A stretch of DNA of 64,000 bases from positions 679,501 through 743,500 of the forward strand of contig NZ_CP017259.1 of assembly GCF_001735715.1 (NCBI RefSeq), read 5' to 3'. The notes under the pieces were generated by a model. The model was not told where the DNA came from, searched no databases, and was given only the letters and a program-made list of their open reading frames with translations. A program made the translations under genes and the position numbers. Positions within the stretch are counted from its first letter, which is position 1, and each line of letters opens with the position of its first letter. This document shows positions 25,648 through 33,281 of the stretch, in pieces. Source of the stretch: Formosa sp. Hel3_A1_48. Lineage in GTDB: Bacteria; Bacteroidota; Bacteroidia; Flavobacteriales; Flavobacteriaceae.

Positions 25648-25655
25648 TACATTTG
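25648..25655 (+). promoter_or_regulatory. possible -7 box (TACATTTG) at the start of the kynurenine operon
   Basis: Matches TAnnTTTG but overlaps the first candidate kynU start codon (TTG at 25653). If it is the promoter, translation would have to begin further in, for example at TTG 25677. Confidence 0.35.
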
Positions 25656-26945
25656 AGTACATCCAAAAAGATACACTTGATTGCATTTGAACCACATCTT
25701 GAATTTGCGTTAAACTTAGACCGGAACGATCCACTCGCTAAGTACAGAACTGCATTCCACATCCCAAAAGATGAGCAAGGCAACGACTGGTTGTATTTTA
25801 CAGGGAATTCTCTGGGACTTCAACCCAAGACCACCAAATCGGCCATTGAGCAAGAGCTGAATGATTGGGCCAATTTGGGTGTCGAAGGCCATTTTGAAGC
25901 CAAAAATCCATGGATGCCCTACCACGAATTTCTCACCGAAAGTATGGCCAAAATCATGGGCGCAAAACCCATTGAAATTGTGGTCATGAATACCCTCACT
26001 ACAAACCTCCATCTTTTGATGGTTTCTTTCTATAATCCTACAAAAAAAAGACATAAAATTCTTATAGAAAGTGATGCTTTCCCATCGGATCGCTATGCGG
26101 TACAAACACAATTGGAATTTCATGGATATGATACCAATGAATGCCTAATAGAGTGGACACCTCGCACAGATGAAAAATTATTACGCACAGAAGATCTCGA
26201 ACAAATTCTTGAAACTCAAGGCGAAGAAATTGCACTTTTGCTTATTGGCGGAGTAAATTATTACACAGGGCAATATTTGGATTTAAAAAAAATTGCAGCT
26301 CTCGGTCATGCCAAAGGATGTAAAGTAGGTATTGATTTGGCGCATGGTGCCGGTAATATCCAACCCGAATTGCATGATTCTGGTATCGATTTTGCGGCTT
26401 GGTGCACCTACAAATATTTAAATGCTGGTCCGGGTAGTCTGGGTGGTGTATTTGTTCATGAACGCTATGCCCACGACAAGACTTTAAAACGTTTTGCAGG
26501 GTGGTGGAGTCAAAATAAAGCCACGCGCTTCAATATGCGTCAGCCACTCGATATTACCCCTGGTGCAGAAGGATGGCAACTTAGCAATCCACCCATTTTA
26601 TCGATGGCCGCCATCAAAGCTGCCTTGGATTTATTCAATGAAGTGGGGATGAACAAATTGAGGGAAAAATCAATCAAACTTACGGGTTATTTGGAATTCC
26701 TTATCAAAGGATTGAATCATGCACAAATAGAAATCATAACGCCTAGCGACTCCAACCAACGTGGGTGTCAATTGTCGATTCAAGTGAAAAATGCTAATAA
26801 AGATTTACACAAAAAACTAACTGAACAGCACGTCATTACCGATTGGAGAGAACCAGATGTGATCCGCTGCGCACCAGTCCCATTTTACAACTCTTTTGAA
26901 GATGTGTTTCGGATGGTAAAAATTTTAAAAACTCTTTTGCCATGA
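25653..26945 (+). CDS. kynU: kynureninase
   Basis: KynU is a PLP enzyme that splits kynurenine or 3-hydroxykynurenine into alanine plus anthranilate or 3-hydroxyanthranilate. The 430-residue protein has the YFTGNSLGLQPK start block, the GVNYYTGQYLDLK segment, IDLAHGAGN with the pyridine-binding Asp, and the Schiff-base lysine in CTYKYLNAGPGS (about residue 253). The first start after an in-frame stop is TTG 25653; TTG 25677 is an equally plausible alternative because a -7 box overlaps the first. Followed by kmo with a 4-base overlap, it most likely works on 3-hydroxykynurenine here. Confidence 0.95.
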   Translation: MSTSKKIHLIAFEPHLEFALNLDRNDPLAKYRTAFHIPKDEQGNDWLYFTGNSLGLQPKTTKSAIEQELNDWANLGVEGHFEAKNPWMPYHEFLTESMAKIMGAKPIEIVVMNTLTTNLHLLMVSFYNPTKKRHKILIESDAFPSDRYAVQTQLEFHGYDTNECLIEWTPRTDEKLLRTEDLEQILETQGEEIALLLIGGVNYYTGQYLDLKKIAALGHAKGCKVGIDLAHGAGNIQPELHDSGIDFAAWCTYKYLNAGPGSLGGVFVHERYAHDKTLKRFAGWWSQNKATRFNMRQPLDITPGAEGWQLSNPPILSMAAIKAALDLFNEVGMNKLREKSIKLTGYLEFLIKGLNHAQIEIITPSDSNQRGCQLSIQVKNANKDLHKKLTEQHVITDWREPDVIRCAPVPFYNSFEDVFRMVKILKTLLP

Positions 26946-28345
26946 ACAACAAAGAAAATATACTCATCATAGGAGCTGGTCTTTGCGGTTCGCTTTTGGC
27001 CTTACGACTGGGGCAACGGGGCTACAATGTCCGTGTGATGGAATTGCGCCCAGACCTTCGAAAAGTAGACCTCAGCGCTGGACGTTCGATAAATTTAGCA
27101 TTTTCAAATCGTGGGCTAAAAGCCATAAAAATGGTGGGGTTGGAAGACAAAGTGAATAAACTCTGTATACCCATGCACGGCCGTATGCTACACGATAAAA
27201 AAGGTAGTACAAAACTTTCTCATTACAGTGGTCGAAAAGATGAATATATCAATTCAATTTCTAGAGAATTACTCACCGCTTTACTTATTGATGAAGCAGA
27301 AGCATTGGATAATGTCAGCATTGAATTTGATGTCAAATGCAATGAAGTTAATTTTGAGCAAAATGTAGCTAATTTCACAAACACAATCAACAAGAGGACC
27401 TTTGAGTGTAGCGCTGACCTCATATTTGGAACAGATGGTGCAGGTTCAGCGCTTAGAAAAAGTTACTTCTCAGAACGTAAATTTTTATTCAGCTTTTCTC
27501 AAAATTATCTCACCCACGGATATAAAGAACTGACAATACCATCAACTAAAGATGGCGGATTCAAAACGTTTGAAAATGCACTTCACATTTGGCCAAGAGG
27601 TGAATTTATGATCATTGCTCTACCAAATTTAGATGGGAGTTTTACAGTCACTTTATTTTTGGCTTACGATACGGGAACTTATAATTTCAATAATTTAACG
27701 ACTAAAGAAAAAGTTGTTGAGTTTTTTAATAAAGAATTTCCTGATGCCGTAGAACTAATGCCCAATTTGGCTACAGAATTTTTTGAGAACCCAACAGCGC
27801 CGCTAGGAACAATCAAATGTTACCCATGGCAATACAAAGGAAAAAATATGCTGTTAGGTGATGCCGCACACGCCATTGTGCCCTTTTATGGCCAAGGCAT
27901 GAACGCGTCTTTTGAAGATGTTGTAGAGTTTGATGCATTTTTGGACGCACACACTGGAGATTGGGAAAAAACCTTCAATGCATTTCAACAAAAAAGAAAA
28001 ACCGATACAGATGGTATAGCCGATTTGGCTATTGATAATTTTCACGAAATGAAAGACCATGTAGCCAATCCTCTTTTTCAGAAAAAACGAGCATTAGAAA
28101 TGGCTTTAGAAACAGAATTACCAAATGATTATTTTTCAAAATATTCGTTAGTAACATTTTGCGAACACATTGGTTATCATGAAGCTATGACTCGTGGCCG
28201 TGCACAAGATAAAGCCATTTTAAACATGTTAGATGACAAAGAAATTGATCAAAACATCCCAATTGATGAACTTCATAAGAAAATAAAAAAAGAAACCAAT
28301 TCCATTTTGGAAGACGATAAAGTTGCAAAAACTTTACACCATTAA
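26942..28345 (+). CDS. kmo: kynurenine 3-monooxygenase
   Basis: Kmo uses FAD, NADPH and O2 to hydroxylate kynurenine to 3-hydroxykynurenine. The 467-residue flavoprotein has the N-terminal dinucleotide fold GAGLCG (11-16) followed by a Glu about 20 residues on, the [17 protein letters not shown] segment that lines the substrate pocket, and the second FAD motif [23 protein letters not shown] hydrophobic/amphipathic C-terminal part is present, as in other KMOs, though no clear membrane anchor. The ATG overlaps the kynU stop (ATGA), so the two are coupled. Substrate and order in the operon agree. Confidence 0.96.
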
Positions 28346-28359
28346 ATACAACTTTGATT

Positions 28360-28764
28360 ATGAGTAAAACAGTCACACCAAGAGGCGCATACCCACACAC
28401 AAAACGTGTAGGTGATTTTATTTTTGTTTCGGGAACAAGTTCAAGACGAGCAGACAACTCGATTGCAGGAGTAGAAATCATAGACGCCATGGGAACCAAA
28501 AAATTAGATGCTAAAGTACAAACACAAGAAGTGCTTCAAAACATAGATAAAAATTTAGCAAAGGAAGGCGCTTCATTGGCCGATGTGGTTGATGTCACCT
28601 CATTTTTGGTCAATATGAATGATTTTGCAGATTACAACAAAGCCTATGCAGAATTTTTTAATCCTGAAAATGGCCCTACACGTACTACGGTAGCGGTACA
28701 CCAACTTCCCCACCCCGATTTGGTGGTAGAGATAAAAGTAGTAGCGTATAAAAAACAAGAATAA
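28360..28764 (+). CDS. RidA-family protein, probable 2-aminomuconate deaminase
   Basis: A 134-residue YjgF/YER057c/UK114 (RidA) family protein. In bacterial 3-hydroxyanthranilate and nitrobenzoate pathways, a RidA-type enzyme (NbaF/AmnD-like) deaminates 2-aminomuconate to 4-oxalocrotonate. Seen: [10 protein letters not shown], the [15 protein letters not shown] segment, and [27 protein letters not shown] ending with the conserved Arg and Glu. General enamine/imine deaminase activity is the alternative. ATG 28360 is chosen over an upstream TTG. The gene sits between kmo and the semialdehyde dehydrogenase, one base overlapping the latter, which supports the pathway role. Confidence 0.85.
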
Positions 28765-30206
28765 TGACCATAAAAAATTACATCAATGGAGCTTATTGCA
28801 TGCCGTCAAGTCAAGATTGGCTCGATGTAATTAACCCCAGTGTAGGTGAAATTTATGGTAAACTTCCAAACTCTAACCGTGAAGATGTTCAACTTGCATA
28901 TGAAGCGGCCAAAAAAGCATTTCCAGAGTGGTCCAAAACAAGTGTGGAAAAACGAAGTGCGATTTTAGCCAAAATTGCAGATTTAATTGAAGACAATTTA
29001 GAGGTTCTTGCCAAAGCTGAAAGCATGGATAATGGTAAGCCACTTTCGCTAGCTAAAGCTGTAGATATTCCCAGAGCTGCAACTAATTTTAGATTTTTTA
29101 GTCAAGCAATTACTCAATTTTATAGTGAAAGCCATGAACAAATTGCAGCAAAATCAATCAATTTCACGCTTAGGCAACCAATTGGGGTTGTGGGTTGTAT
29201 ATCCCCTTGGAATTTACCTCTCTATTTATTCACTTGGAAAATAGCACCTGCCTTGGCTGCTGGAAATTGTGTACTAGCCAAACCTAGTGAAGTTACACCC
29301 TACACAGCATTTTTATTAGCAGAACTCTGTAGTAAAGCTGGACTCCCAAAGGGTGTACTAAACATCGTAAATGGACTAGGTTCAAGTACCGGACAAGCAA
29401 TTGTGGAACATCCCAATATCAAAGCTATTTCGTTTACGGGTGGAACCAAAACCGGAGCACATATAGCACGAACGGCCGCACCATTATTTAAAAAATTATC
29501 TTTAGAATTAGGGGGGAAAAACCCTAACATTATTTTCGCTGATTGTGACTACGATAAGATGCTCACCACAACTGTAAAATCAGCTTTTGCCAACCAAGGA
29601 CAAATCTGTCTCTGTGGAAGTCGAATATTTGTAGAAGCAAGTATGTATGAGCAATTCAAAACCGATTTCGTTAAAAAAGTTAAACAACTAAAAGTTGGCC
29701 TACCTTCCAAAAAAGATAGTGATTTAGGCGCTTTAGTTTCCGAAGATCATCTTGAAAAAGTATTGAGTTACGTTGAAAAAGCAAAACAGGAAAAAATGAA
29801 TATTTTGTGTGGAGGCGAAAAGCTTACTACAGAAAATGGCAAAAACGGTTATTATATGCAACCCACCATAATAGAGGTATCTTCCAACGATTGCATATTG
29901 AATCAAGAAGAAATTTTTGGTCCGATAGTTACACTAATGGCCTTTGAAAATGATAAAGAAGCATTGGCGCTAGCTAACACTACCTCTTATGGGCTATCGG
30001 CAACAGTATGGACCAATAATTTGAAGCGAAGCTTGCACTTTTCTGAGCATTTAGAAACTGGTATTGTTTGGGTCAATACATGGATGCAACGCGATTTGCG
30101 CACTCCATTTGGTGGTCAAAAAAATTCTGGTGTAGGTCGTGAAGGCGGTTTTGAGGTGTTGCGCTTTTTTACCGAAGCCAAAAATATATGTATTAACTAT
30201 GAATAA
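28764..30206 (+). CDS. 2-aminomuconate-6-semialdehyde dehydrogenase
   Basis: An NAD-dependent aldehyde dehydrogenase of 480 residues in the 2-hydroxymuconic/2-aminomuconic semialdehyde group. It oxidises 2-aminomuconate 6-semialdehyde to 2-aminomuconate, outpacing the spontaneous ring closure to picolinate. The oxyanion Asn lies in CISPWNLPLYLFTWKIAPA, a signature shared with ALDH8A1-type enzymes. The general base is E248 (LELGGKNPN) and the nucleophile C282 (GQICLCGS), with EEIFGPIV and the PFGGQKNSGVGREGG ending. Start overlaps the RidA stop by one base. The operon position makes the substrate assignment strong. Confidence 0.92.
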   Translation: MTIKNYINGAYCMPSSQDWLDVINPSVGEIYGKLPNSNREDVQLAYEAAKKAFPEWSKTSVEKRSAILAKIADLIEDNLEVLAKAESMDNGKPLSLAKAVDIPRAATNFRFFSQAITQFYSESHEQIAAKSINFTLRQPIGVVGCISPWNLPLYLFTWKIAPALAAGNCVLAKPSEVTPYTAFLLAELCSKAGLPKGVLNIVNGLGSSTGQAIVEHPNIKAISFTGGTKTGAHIARTAAPLFKKLSLELGGKNPNIIFADCDYDKMLTTTVKSAFANQGQICLCGSRIFVEASMYEQFKTDFVKKVKQLKVGLPSKKDSDLGALVSEDHLEKVLSYVEKAKQEKMNILCGGEKLTTENGKNGYYMQPTIIEVSSNDCILNQEEIFGPIVTLMAFENDKEALALANTTSYGLSATVWTNNLKRSLHFSEHLETGIVWVNTWMQRDLRTPFGGQKNSGVGREGGFEVLRFFTEAKNICINYE

Positions 30207-30212
30207 GGTTTT

Positions 30213-30995
30213 ATGGAATTAAATTTAAAAAATAAATCAGCACTTGTATGTGGAAGCACCCAAGGTATAGGACGAGCTGCGGCTATGGCCTTAGCGAGTG
30301 AAGGAACAAGAATTACACTTGTGGCTAGAAATGAAGAAAGACTTAAAAAAGTACTATCTGAGTTGCCAAAATCTGCTAAGCATGATTATATAGTAGCTGA
30401 TTTTTCGAACCCCCAACAACTTAAATCAAAGGTATTGGAATATTTAGCTTCAAATTCAGGATTCCACATCTTGATAAATAACACTGGAGGGCCGAGAAGT
30501 GGCGCTATCATAGAAGCTAATTTAGAGGAATTTGAATCGGCTTTTACTCAACACCTCAAATGCAATCACGTCTTGGCGCAACTGCTGGTGCCTTTTATGA
30601 AATCTGAGCAATACGGCCGTATCATCAATATAATTTCAACTTCTGTAAAAGAACCCATTGAAGGCCTTGGCGTGAGCAATACAATCAGAAATGCCGTTGG
30701 GAACTGGAGTAAAACTTTGTCTTTTGAATTGGGTGCATTTGGTATAACTGTGAATAATGTTTTGCCTGGATTTACGGAAACGGAACGTTTGAACGAAATT
30801 ATTAATATCAAGGCCAATAAAGCAGGGGTTTCATTTGAAGAAATGGAAGAAGTCATGAAAACATACACGCCAGCAAAACGCTTTGCAAAACCGGAAGAAA
30901 CAGCCAATACCGTAGTGTTTTTGGCTAGTGAGGCTGCAAGCTATGTTAATGGTGTTAATATTCCTGTTGATGGTGGACGAACAAAATCTTTGTAA
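30213..30995 (+). CDS. SDR-family protein with an atypical active site
   Basis: A 260-residue short-chain dehydrogenase/reductase-fold protein in the middle of the kynurenine operon. The NAD(P) motif is GSTQGIG (14-20) and the NNTGG strand end is present (89-93). The serine region is ISTSV (141-145), but where YxxxK should be, the sequence reads SNTIR (155-159), so the catalytic Tyr and Lys are both missing. It belongs to the divergent FabG-like SDR group with SNxxR. It may bind nucleotide without classical catalysis or use another mechanism. No step of the known pathway needs it, so its role is open. Confidence 0.88.
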   Translation: MELNLKNKSALVCGSTQGIGRAAAMALASEGTRITLVARNEERLKKVLSELPKSAKHDYIVADFSNPQQLKSKVLEYLASNSGFHILINNTGGPRSGAIIEANLEEFESAFTQHLKCNHVLAQLLVPFMKSEQYGRIINIISTSVKEPIEGLGVSNTIRNAVGNWSKTLSFELGAFGITVNNVLPGFTETERLNEIINIKANKAGVSFEEMEEVMKTYTPAKRFAKPEETANTVVFLASEAASYVNGVNIPVDGGRTKSL

Positions 30996-31023
30996 CTTTA
31001 GAAAAATAAAACACCACATAATA

Positions 31024-31548
31024 ATGAGTAAAATTGTATCACCACTTAATTTTAAAGCTTGGATTGAAGAAAACCGAGCTCTACTAGAACCACCTGTCGG
31101 CAATAAATGTATCTGGAAAGATGGCGAATTTATTGTCATGGTTGTTGGAGGTCCAAACAACAGAAAAGATTATCATTACAACGAAACACCTGAGTTTTTC
31201 TATCAAGTTGAAGGCGACATAATTTTAAAAATAATAGATAAAGGTATAGCTAAAGATGTACATATTAAGGAAGGGGATATTTATTTGTTACCTGCAAAAG
31301 TTCCGCACTCTCCACAACGCGGAGCCAATACTGTTGGTCTTGTGATTGAATACCCCAGAGCCAAAGACATGGAAGACGCTTTGGAATGGTACTGCACGTC
31401 TTGTCATCATCAATTGTATAGAGAACCTTTTACACTAAAAAATATTGAAACTGATATGCCAGCTATTTTTAAGCGGTTTTATTCGGATGAAGAAAAATGT
31501 ACTTGTGAAAAGTGCGGTACAAAAATGGAAGCACCAAATAACGTATAA
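31024..31548 (+). CDS. 3-hydroxyanthranilate 3,4-dioxygenase
   Basis: HAAO opens the ring of 3-hydroxyanthranilate with O2, giving 2-amino-3-carboxymuconate 6-semialdehyde (ACMS). The 174-residue cupin has iron ligands H51, E57 and H95 and substrate arginines R47 and R99, at the same numbers as the Cupriavidus metallidurans enzyme. A second rubredoxin-like iron site is formed by C124, C127, C161 and C164, the bacterial type. The ATG at 31024 follows the SDR stop by 28 bases; an earlier in-frame start would overlap the SDR gene and is not needed. Symbol nbaC/haao is used for this enzyme in other organisms. Confidence 0.97.
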   Translation: MSKIVSPLNFKAWIEENRALLEPPVGNKCIWKDGEFIVMVVGGPNNRKDYHYNETPEFFYQVEGDIILKIIDKGIAKDVHIKEGDIYLLPAKVPHSPQRGANTVGLVIEYPRAKDMEDALEWYCTSCHHQLYREPFTLKNIETDMPAIFKRFYSDEEKCTCEKCGTKMEAPNNV

Positions 31549-31557
31549 ACTATAAAC

Positions 31558-32640
31558 ATGAAACGAAAACTGCGCATCAACGGCCATTCACATCTTCTTC
31601 CTTATCCGGAAGAAATCCCTCAGTTTATGAAAGACAAGGAGATATTTTGGGTAGATGATGAACGTAGATATATGCTTCAAAAAGGATGGAGCCGACCTGT
31701 AACACATTCTAGTTTTTTTCTTGACGAAAAACTAGAATGGATGGAAGACAATAAAATTGATCATGCCGTAGTGTTGAATCTTTCTCAGTTGTATGGCAAT
31801 GGTTTGCGTCTTGAAATGATGAAAAAAGCCTTGCGGTTTCAAAATGATTTTAATGCGAAAATTCAACAAAATCACGCCTCAAAATTCACTTGTGGCTTTG
31901 TTATTCACCCTGGATTTATTCAAGGTGCGCTATGGGAAATCGAACGCTGTGTTGAAGAGCTGGGCCTTAATGTTTTGTGTTTACCCACTCACTTCATGGA
32001 TAGTATTGGGCAATGGCGAAGTGTTTTTGATCGAGAAAACGATGCTATTTTTGAATTGGCAAATAAATACAATTTAGCCATTGAAATTCATCCCTATGAC
32101 GGAGACAAAATGATCAAACTCGAAAATACCTCCTGGCGGTTTCATTTGATTTGGATGTTGGCACAATGTGGAGATGCCTATCATTTCTACACCCTCAATG
32201 GTATGCAAGAACGCTTTCCAAACATAAGAACATGTTTTGCTCACGGTGGTCAAATGGCGCAAATGAATCTTGGGAGACGTATTCAAGGGTTTGATGGACG
32301 CCCTGACTTGTTTGACGGAAAGACGCATCCTCGTAAAGCTGTTGGTCATCCAAATATATATTTTGACACCCTTGTACACGATACCGATTCTTTTAATTTG
32401 ATGTTGAAACGACAGGGCAGCAATCAAATTATTATGGGACTGGATGATCCATATCCACTTGGCGAAATGGAAAGCGAGGCACAGTCATCGTACCCAGGAA
32501 AACTATTAGATTTAGCCAAAGAACGCGATATTATTGATCAAAATCAATATGACGATATATGGGAGGATAATGTATTGCGCTGGCTATTTGGAAATGACCA
32601 AAAGAAAATAAACGATTTAACACAAAAAATTTTAGGCTAA
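31558..32640 (+). CDS. 2-amino-3-carboxymuconate-6-semialdehyde decarboxylase
   Basis: ACMSD decarboxylates ACMS to 2-aminomuconate 6-semialdehyde, drawing flux away from quinolinate and NAD synthesis. The 360-residue protein is an amidohydrolase-fold, zinc-dependent, non-oxidative decarboxylase. Metal ligands visible are H10 and H12 (NGHSH), H178 (EIHPYDG) and D296 (MGLDDPYP); the catalytic base is H229 (CFAHGGQMA). Nearby arginines (NLGRR, about 239-241) fit substrate carboxylate binding. It overlaps the following methyltransferase by one base. The symbol in other systems is acmsd/nbaD. Confidence 0.96.
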   Translation: MKRKLRINGHSHLLPYPEEIPQFMKDKEIFWVDDERRYMLQKGWSRPVTHSSFFLDEKLEWMEDNKIDHAVVLNLSQLYGNGLRLEMMKKALRFQNDFNAKIQQNHASKFTCGFVIHPGFIQGALWEIERCVEELGLNVLCLPTHFMDSIGQWRSVFDRENDAIFELANKYNLAIEIHPYDGDKMIKLENTSWRFHLIWMLAQCGDAYHFYTLNGMQERFPNIRTCFAHGGQMAQMNLGRRIQGFDGRPDLFDGKTHPRKAVGHPNIYFDTLVHDTDSFNLMLKRQGSNQIIMGLDDPYPLGEMESEAQSSYPGKLLDLAKERDIIDQNQYDDIWEDNVLRWLFGNDQKKINDLTQKILG

Positions 32641-33281
32641 TGCACTTCATTCCCGAAGCGCTGGACCAGTATGTTGTTCAGCATTCTGAAGACGAACCAA
32701 AACTTCTTCAAGCACTCACTAGAGAAACCTATCAAAAGATCTTGCAACCACGTATGCTCAGCGGGCATTATCAAGGACGTGTATTAAGTACGCTTTCTAA
32801 GTTAATCAAACCCAAAACAATTTTAGAATTAGGAACGTTTACCGGATATTCTGCATTGTGTCTGGCTGAAGGATTGCAGAAAAATGGAGTATTGCATACA
32901 ATTGATGTCAATGAAGAATTAGTAAACTTCCAAAGAAAATATTTTGATTTGTCTAAATATGGAAGTCAAATCCATCAACACCTAGGCCCTGCTTTAGAAA
33001 TAATTCCAAATTTAAACACTAAGTTTGATTTGGTCTTTTTAGATGCGGATAAACCAAATTACATCAACTATTTTCATGAAATCATAGAAAAATTAAATCC
33101 AGGAGGAGTGCTCCTTTCGGACAATGTGCTGTGGAGTGGAAAAGTTATCGAGCCTTTAAATGAAAATGATCAGTCTACAAAAATTGTTCTCGAATACAAC
33201 CAGCTTCTTAAGGACGATGATCGCTTAGAAACAGTACTGCTGCCTATCCGCGATGGGCTCACTGTGAGCATAAAAAAATAA
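32640..33281 (+). CDS. class I SAM-dependent O-methyltransferase (caffeoyl-CoA/catechol type)
   Basis: A 213-residue methyltransferase of the cation-dependent OMT family that methylates catechol-like hydroxyls. Motif I is ILELGTFTGYSALCLAEG (about 61-78), followed by the IDVNEE acidic residue and a metal-binding DADK motif (DLVFLDADKPNY, about 130-141) with a second Asp-Asn pair in LLSDNVLWSGKV. It starts on the last base of the ACMSD stop, so it belongs to the transcript. No methylation step is known in this catabolic route; possible substrates are 3-hydroxyanthranilate or 3-hydroxykynurenine, or the gene is a bystander common to this position in Flavobacteriaceae. Confidence 0.92.
   Translation: MHFIPEALDQYVVQHSEDEPKLLQALTRETYQKILQPRMLSGHYQGRVLSTLSKLIKPKTILELGTFTGYSALCLAEGLQKNGVLHTIDVNEELVNFQRKYFDLSKYGSQIHQHLGPALEIIPNLNTKFDLVFLDADKPNYINYFHEIIEKLNPGGVLLSDNVLWSGKVIEPLNENDQSTKIVLEYNQLLKDDDRLETVLLPIRDGLTVSIKK

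Follow-up and report, generated by a model that had tools for sequence, protein, structure and literature searches.

An operon for kynurenine degradation in Formosa sp. Hel3_A1_48 raises the question as to how the intermediates made by its enzymes are metabolised further, and whether two of its genes without an obvious step, encoding a short-chain dehydrogenase/reductase (SDR) and a class I O-methyltransferase (OMT), take part in this. The operon occupies positions 25653–33281 of the window, the 64,000-nucleotide stretch analysed here (contig NZ_CP017259.1, positions 679,501 to 743,500), and comprises kynU (kynureninase), kmo (kynurenine 3-monooxygenase type), a RidA-family gene, and genes for a 2-aminomuconate-6-semialdehyde dehydrogenase (AMSDH)-type enzyme, the SDR, 3-hydroxyanthranilate 3,4-dioxygenase (HAAO), an ACMSD-type amidohydrolase and the OMT. 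The first-pass annotation described eight same-strand genes with overlaps or tiny gaps, and the ORF list of the window bears this out, with all eight on the + strand, at the coordinates first noted and with junctions of -4 to ~28 bp. The operon is real, and not a chance arrangement, because its gene order is conserved: in 23 of the 28 other HAAO loci that hold the SDR, it lies within 300 bp of HAAO. The SDR itself (30213..30995, + strand, 260 aa, PF13561) is the proposed 4-oxalocrotonate/2-aminomuconate C=C reductase, a proposal built on co-occurrence, displacement, active-site columns and fold. We consider it likely that the operon encodes a bacterial counterpart to the glutarate route of mammals, with the SDR making 2-oxoadipate and the OMT a bystander.

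The distribution of the SDR points to a role in the pathway. Among 395 Bacteroidota genomes, HAAO (E ≤ 3e-47; 25 genomes with weak matches only, best E 3.4e-7, not counted) is present in 86, and an SDR ortholog (E ≤ 1e-93; the next value, 5e-88, was excluded, five weaker matches served as outgroups, and three matches near 27% identity were dropped) in 64, namely in 50 of the 86 HAAO genomes vs. 14 of the 309 others. Stretches around the 85 HAAO loci besides that of the window hold the SDR in 28 cases. AMSDH and the decarboxylase type were searched for in 80 genomes, made up of 66 of the 86 HAAO genomes plus the 14 HAAO-less SDR genomes; the other 20 HAAO genomes, which are of the same family and lack the SDR, were omitted, and the AMSDH-less set of family f1 is thereby thinned. 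AMSDH (E ≤ 1e-140) is found in 50 of the 80, every one an HAAO genome. The SDR accompanies it in 47 of these 50 HAAO genomes, compared with 3 of the 16 that lack AMSDH, and the split recurs within families (f1, 9/10 vs. 0/8; f8, 4/4 vs. 0/4), although the genomes are related and p-values from Fisher tests on these splits are only indicative. HAAO without AMSDH and ACMSD presumably serves NAD synthesis, so that the SDR would follow the catabolic branch and not HAAO itself. These patterns make it very likely that the SDR belongs to the pathway. Tryptophan 2,3-dioxygenase (TDO) immediately precedes SDR-AMSDH-RidA in locus L042, and in L248 TDO, SDR and AMSDH lie on the same strand within 5 kb.

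Two side observations concern the edges of this distribution. The Planctomycetota contigs L214 and L229 hold an SDR 63% identical to that of the window, accompanied in L214 by RidA (62% identity), AMSDH (63%) and ACMSD (74%); this module may reflect horizontal transfer or assembly contamination. In family f1, loci L091–L121 except L094 and L098 carry HAAO without nearby kynU, and most have a nearby aldehyde dehydrogenase 27–30% identical to AMSDH.

Genomes that do encode the lower meta-cleavage enzymes offer a complementary view. Decarboxylase/hydratase-type genes (TIGR03218) occur in 3 of the 80 tested genomes. G128 has two, one of them beside HAAO, and lacks both an SDR ortholog and AMSDH (at 1e-140); G367 has two, together with an AMSDH of 71% identity and no SDR; the 56-bit match in G030, where the SDR is present, is unconvincing. 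Among 279 Flavobacteriaceae genomes, TIGR03218 matches in 8 and the SDR (E ≤ 1e-90) in 139. A decarboxylase- plus hydratase-type pair is found in 6 of the 279 (G415, G367, G470, G497, G643 and G650), the two types being told apart by NCBIfam for G367 and by best BLAST match for the other five, and the second gene of G470 consisting of two contig-end pieces. The SDR is present in none of the six, while AMSDH is in the loci of five, with none seen in the G415 loci examined. L350 of G470 (an assembly 81% complete and 4% contaminated) keeps nearly the gene order of the window operon and reads kynU-kmo-DmpH-ridA-AMSDH-HAAO-ACMSD-OMT, where DmpH and a further ORF separate kmo from ridA; the SDR is missing between AMSDH and HAAO, and tblastn found no trace of it. 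L348 of G643 is arranged similarly, but with HAAO outside the stretch. In L346 (G497) and L349 (G650), kynU, kmo, ACMSD, AMSDH, RidA, DmpH, DmpE, DmpF and DmpG stand together, aldolase and acetaldehyde dehydrogenase being labelled by BLAST, and in G367 the pathway genes are split over three places (L278–L280). Aldolase (TIGR03217) and acetaldehyde dehydrogenase (TIGR03215) exceed their cut-offs in L280 (G367) and L281 (G128, from another family), where the decarboxylase and hydratase models matched under cut-off. RidA is retained in SDR loci and lower-meta loci alike. Given how closely the SDR tracks AMSDH, and its reciprocal presence with the lower meta genes, the SDR and the lower meta enzymes appear to replace each other, and the simplest reading is that the product of AMSDH and RidA has two interchangeable fates. 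As a separate observation, two complete lower-meta clusters have an IclR-type regulator next to DmpH (L346:6776-7552, by Pfam; L349:11520-12302, by its similar sequence start), and there is none among the eight genes of the window operon.

The Formosa genome, a single contig of 2,016,454 bases that is 99.8% complete, bears on whether the lower enzymes are simply encoded elsewhere, as the first-pass annotation had suggested for all genes missing from the window. This holds for TDO, which lies outside the window at C1:1488742, and for a KynB candidate, the one PF04199 cyclase outside the window (C1:929757); it does not hold for the decarboxylase and hydratase. The family that includes 4-oxalocrotonate decarboxylase and 2-oxopent-4-enoate hydratase (PF01557, FAA_hydrolase) has two members genome-wide, a generic protein of 203 aa and a fumarylacetoacetase-like protein of 424 aa, and the TIGR03218 profile has no match in this genome. 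We rejected an origin elsewhere in the genome on these grounds; judged by these profiles, the lower meta-cleavage decarboxylase/hydratase type is absent. An ORF near TDO resembles, from a reading of its translation, the end of 4-hydroxyphenylpyruvate dioxygenase.

What the SDR may catalyse is suggested by its active site. Set against four canonical SDRs encoded in the same loci, its Asn-Ser-Tyr-Lys tetrad has become H114-S142-S155-R159, with Ser142 alone kept. S142, S155 and R159 are found in 73 of 73 core rows and H114 in 66, with Leu in the remaining 7; for these rows, as for the tree, the 80 genome_contigs loci were sampled at every fourth, with L214 and L229 added (roughly a quarter in all), and two further rows below 43% identity were set aside. 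The Gly-rich cofactor motif is CGSTQGIG, in a Rossmann fold, and the predicted model has a pLDDT of 89.1. A structure search ranks AerF with 4-hydroxyphenylpyruvate and SDRs of Burkholderia highest, on a plateau of Z 32–34 that is flat across SDR chains, so the fold search does not discriminate function. At the sequence level the SDR has full-length homology to BacG/YwfH and AerF (PDB 3u49 and 6jh7; 6e-35 and 9e-41), and BacG and 1o5i likewise align without Tyr-x3-Lys. BacG reportedly adds hydride at C4 of a 2-oxo-3-ene, as described in its structure paper. In the excerpted account of PMC9147277, BacG converts (epoxy-)3E-H2HPP to 4S-H4HPP, and hence acts on an unsaturated 2-oxo acid; the differences are that identity is 31–36% in structural alignments, and that BacG and AerF have other substrates and belong to natural-product biosynthesis. 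Isopiperitenone reductase is likewise an SDR that reduces C=C after loss of the catalytic Tyr, and in the mint SDRs ene- and ketoreductases are set apart by a change of Tyr to Glu (PMC4988501, in excerpt), but there Tyr is replaced by Glu, not Ser, in a plant terpene enzyme. Since 4-oxalocrotonate is a 2-oxo-3-enoate, as is the BacG substrate, and Tyr and Lys are lost, C=C reduction by the SDR is plausible by analogy.

In the pathway that we propose, KynU and KMO would yield 3-hydroxyanthranilate, which HAAO, ACMSD and AMSDH would convert to 2-aminomuconate. RidA would then deaminate this to 4-oxalocrotonate (2-oxo-3-hexenedioate), and the SDR would transfer hydride from NAD(P)H onto the C=C bond that is in conjugation with the 2-oxo group, to form 2-oxoadipate; the order of RidA and SDR, the substrate, and the choice of C=C over C=O are presumed here. 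The 2-oxoglutarate dehydrogenase complex is assumed to turn 2-oxoadipate into glutaryl-CoA, and glutaryl-CoA dehydrogenase (GCDH), encoded elsewhere, would take this on to acetyl-CoA. The SDR would thus substitute for the branch of decarboxylase, hydratase, aldolase and acetaldehyde dehydrogenase.

Other roles for the SDR have to be weighed against this one. As a variant that is not exclusive of the proposed pathway, though we think it unlikely, the SDR might act before RidA, reducing 2-aminomuconate to a product that loses ammonia to give 2-oxoadipate. Seven f8/f9 loci (L081, L082, L084, L085, L089, L090 and L098) have the SDR near HAAO with no RidA found in the stretch, as this order would allow, but RidA could be elsewhere in those genomes, and its retention in both SDR and lower-meta operons fits a shared deamination before the split. 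Rather less probable is a reduction of the 2-oxo (or imine) group to a hydroxy- or amino-acid shunt product that would guard the cell against reactive intermediates. Most SDRs are ketoreductases, and the top, though tied, structural match is AerF (6jhb, Z 33.9, rmsd 2.0, 259 aligned), which binds 4-hydroxyphenylpyruvate; against this, the Tyr and Lys are lost, and a shunt would strand the carbon, since the SDR replaces the lower catabolic branch. The SDR could also be a hitchhiking or general gene with no fixed role in the pathway, as the 14 genomes that have it without HAAO or AMSDH might be taken to say. Such a gene would hardly be split 47/50 vs. 3/16 by AMSDH or lie so close to AMSDH or HAAO across distant families as well as in L214 of the Planctomycetota, and we regard this as very improbable.

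The proposed route to 2-oxoadipate nevertheless has several observations weighing against it. G085 and G293 have AMSDH, HAAO, ACMSD, RidA and KynU, yet neither an SDR ortholog nor DmpE/H. Conversely, operons of G444 and G653, of one Flavobacteriaceae genus, combine the SDR with a lone DmpH-type gene (L342, L343), and in L209 (Mesonia aestuariivivens) the SDR and a DmpH-type gene (L209:4826-5581) are ~3.4 kb apart; no hydratase, aldolase or acetaldehyde dehydrogenase was found in these three loci, which seem to be in a mixed or transitional state. In the stretches examined of G643, one of the six genomes with the decarboxylase/hydratase pair, neither an aldolase nor an acetaldehyde dehydrogenase was seen. 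SDR and HAAO occur in three f48 genomes that lack AMSDH at 1e-140, and four Mariniflexile/Algibacter loci (L161, L173, L177 and L180) hold SDR, HAAO, ACMSD, kynU, kmo and OMT with no AMSDH or RidA within the stretch of ~18.8 kb. None of the structures closest in sequence (1o5i, 2z1n and 5va8) has a citable function, and AerF has reportedly been described as a ketoreductase. The 14 genomes with SDR and without HAAO or AMSDH also belong here. Five of them, from f33, branch off on their own and have Ile in place of T143; the other nine keep S142, T143, S155 and R159. In a tree with several unresolved forks, most of the nine fall among sequences linked to the pathway. In four of the nine (L235, L236, L237 and L239) the SDR adjoins kynU, which looks like partial loss of the pathway. 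Nor does the mere presence of GCDH prove anything. The acyl-CoA dehydrogenase of Formosa (L007:790-1968) matches PDB 1sir, which we take to be human GCDH, at 4e-124 over residues 8-391, but GCDH occurs in 293 of the 395 Bacteroidota genomes, so that we rejected its presence as support for the pathway and count only two local linkages, in which, counted from the SDR, it comes third (L236) and sixth (L088). In L236, SDR-kynU is followed by a pyrF-like gene (267 aa), GCDH and a shikimate-kinase-like gene, the likenesses coming from a reading of translations.

The OMT (32640..33281, + strand, 213 aa, PF01596, Methyltransf_3) behaves very differently from the SDR. It could be imagined as an alternative-fate enzyme that methylates 3-hydroxyanthranilate or 3-hydroxykynurenine, and its proximity to ACMSD would fit: the two genes overlap by 1 bp in the window, among the 30 OMT loci closest in sequence, out of 79, 24 have ACMSD no more than 1.5 kb away (a biased sample, in which tatA is as close in 16), and 63 of the 76 genome_contigs loci holding ACMSD have an OMT. 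Yet the OMT is present in 79 of 80 Flavobacteriaceae, taken as a subset of the 279, irrespective of the SDR (42 of the 42 genomes with SDR and 37 of the 38 without it, a split counted by hand), and in only 4 of the 85 other HAAO loci of the Bacteroidota set. We therefore rejected it as a pathway enzyme and give methylation of an intermediate scarcely any credence; the OMT is probably an ordinary neighbour that often joins the operon without depending on it. The first-pass annotation had offered both extra genes as an alternative fate for an intermediate and had raised their conservation as neighbours across Bacteroidota. The former idea probably survives for the SDR, given AMSDH tracking and displacement, and the latter stands for the SDR through its position next to HAAO; neither extends to the OMT.

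Both halves of the proposed route have precedents. The bacterial 3-hydroxyanthranilate meta pathway is reportedly encoded by nba genes in Pseudomonas fluorescens KU-7, and a Burkholderia pathway is said to have been described by Colabroy and Begley in 2005. With it the window operon would share HAAO, ACMSD, AMSDH and the deaminase leading to 4-oxalocrotonate (three of these named by family and context); it differs in that the Formosa genome is without decarboxylase and hydratase and has the SDR in their place. Schemes of mammalian tryptophan catabolism have for decades shown a step to 2-oxoadipate and, to our knowledge, no gene has been identified for it. The kynurenine-glutarate branch of mammals includes an 'oxalocrotonate reductase', 2-oxoadipate dehydrogenase and GCDH (Fig. 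4 legend of a 2026 review, PMC12899273), so the initial claim that no known step requires the SDR was too strong. The proposed reaction sequence is the same in both, down to the GCDH match; the difference is that the reductase stands without a named gene in that legend, while the operon offers a candidate. For an Aspergillus 3-hydroxyanthranilate cluster, with HAAO-ACMSD-AMSDH, a RidA-type gene and an SDR among the syntenic genes, either decarboxylation or a reduction that yields 2-oxoadipate was proposed; in the excerpted text on this fungal cluster (PMC7842363) the enzyme is unnamed and the SDR is not assigned the reduction. Literature searches within open-access holdings gave, among the matches listed, neither a gene for reduction to 2-oxoadipate nor a report of bacterial 2-oxoadipate formation from tryptophan. 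Neither the meta route of bacteria nor the glutarate route of mammals is new; what is new is a candidate reductase gene that is linked to AMSDH and, apparently, reciprocally replaced by lower meta enzymes. We lean towards regarding the SDR as the first identified gene for a reductase from 4-oxalocrotonate/2-aminomuconate to 2-oxoadipate, in which case much of Bacteroidota (and some Planctomycetota, perhaps by transfer) would use a mammal-like route that has been swapped for the lower meta pathway several times. A candidate gene makes the 2-oxoadipate step testable in vitro and provides a query for animal reductases, and if the proposal is true, the pathway annotation of many Bacteroidota would be corrected.

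The remaining genes of the operon, all on the + strand, were named with differing degrees of precision, the roles of KMO, AMSDH, ACMSD and the RidA deaminase being assigned from family and context. kynU (25653..26945, 430 aa) exceeds the TIGR01814 cut-off of 246.4 with 453.7 bits. kmo (26942..28345, 467 aa) encodes a kynurenine 3-monooxygenase-type FAD monooxygenase (PF01494, FAD_binding_3) named from its operon position, its top NCBIfam model being VioC at a score far under cut-off. The RidA-family protein (28354..28764, 136 aa, PF01042, Ribonuc_L-PSP) is likely a 2-aminomuconate deaminase, judging the substrate from context. The AMSDH-type enzyme (28764..30206, 480 aa, PF00171, Aldedh) has TIGR03216 (2-hydroxymuconic semialdehyde dehydrogenase) as its top NCBIfam model, with 540 bits, under the model cut-off. 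HAAO (31024..31548) matches TIGR03037 and NF009763 above cut-off; its listed ORF opens at 30928, and its likely start is 31024, the ATG of MSKIVSPLNF. The ACMSD-type amidohydrolase (31558..32640, 360 aa, PF04909, Amidohydro_2) has no NCBIfam match and is named by context as the neighbour of HAAO. From kynU to the OMT the junctions are -4, 8, -1, 6, 16, 9 and -1 bp with HAAO counted from 31012; with the start at 31024 the SDR-HAAO gap becomes ~28 bp, and spacing across the operon consists of overlaps or gaps of at most about this size. On its 3' side the operon is met by a convergent gene whose translation reads like tatA.

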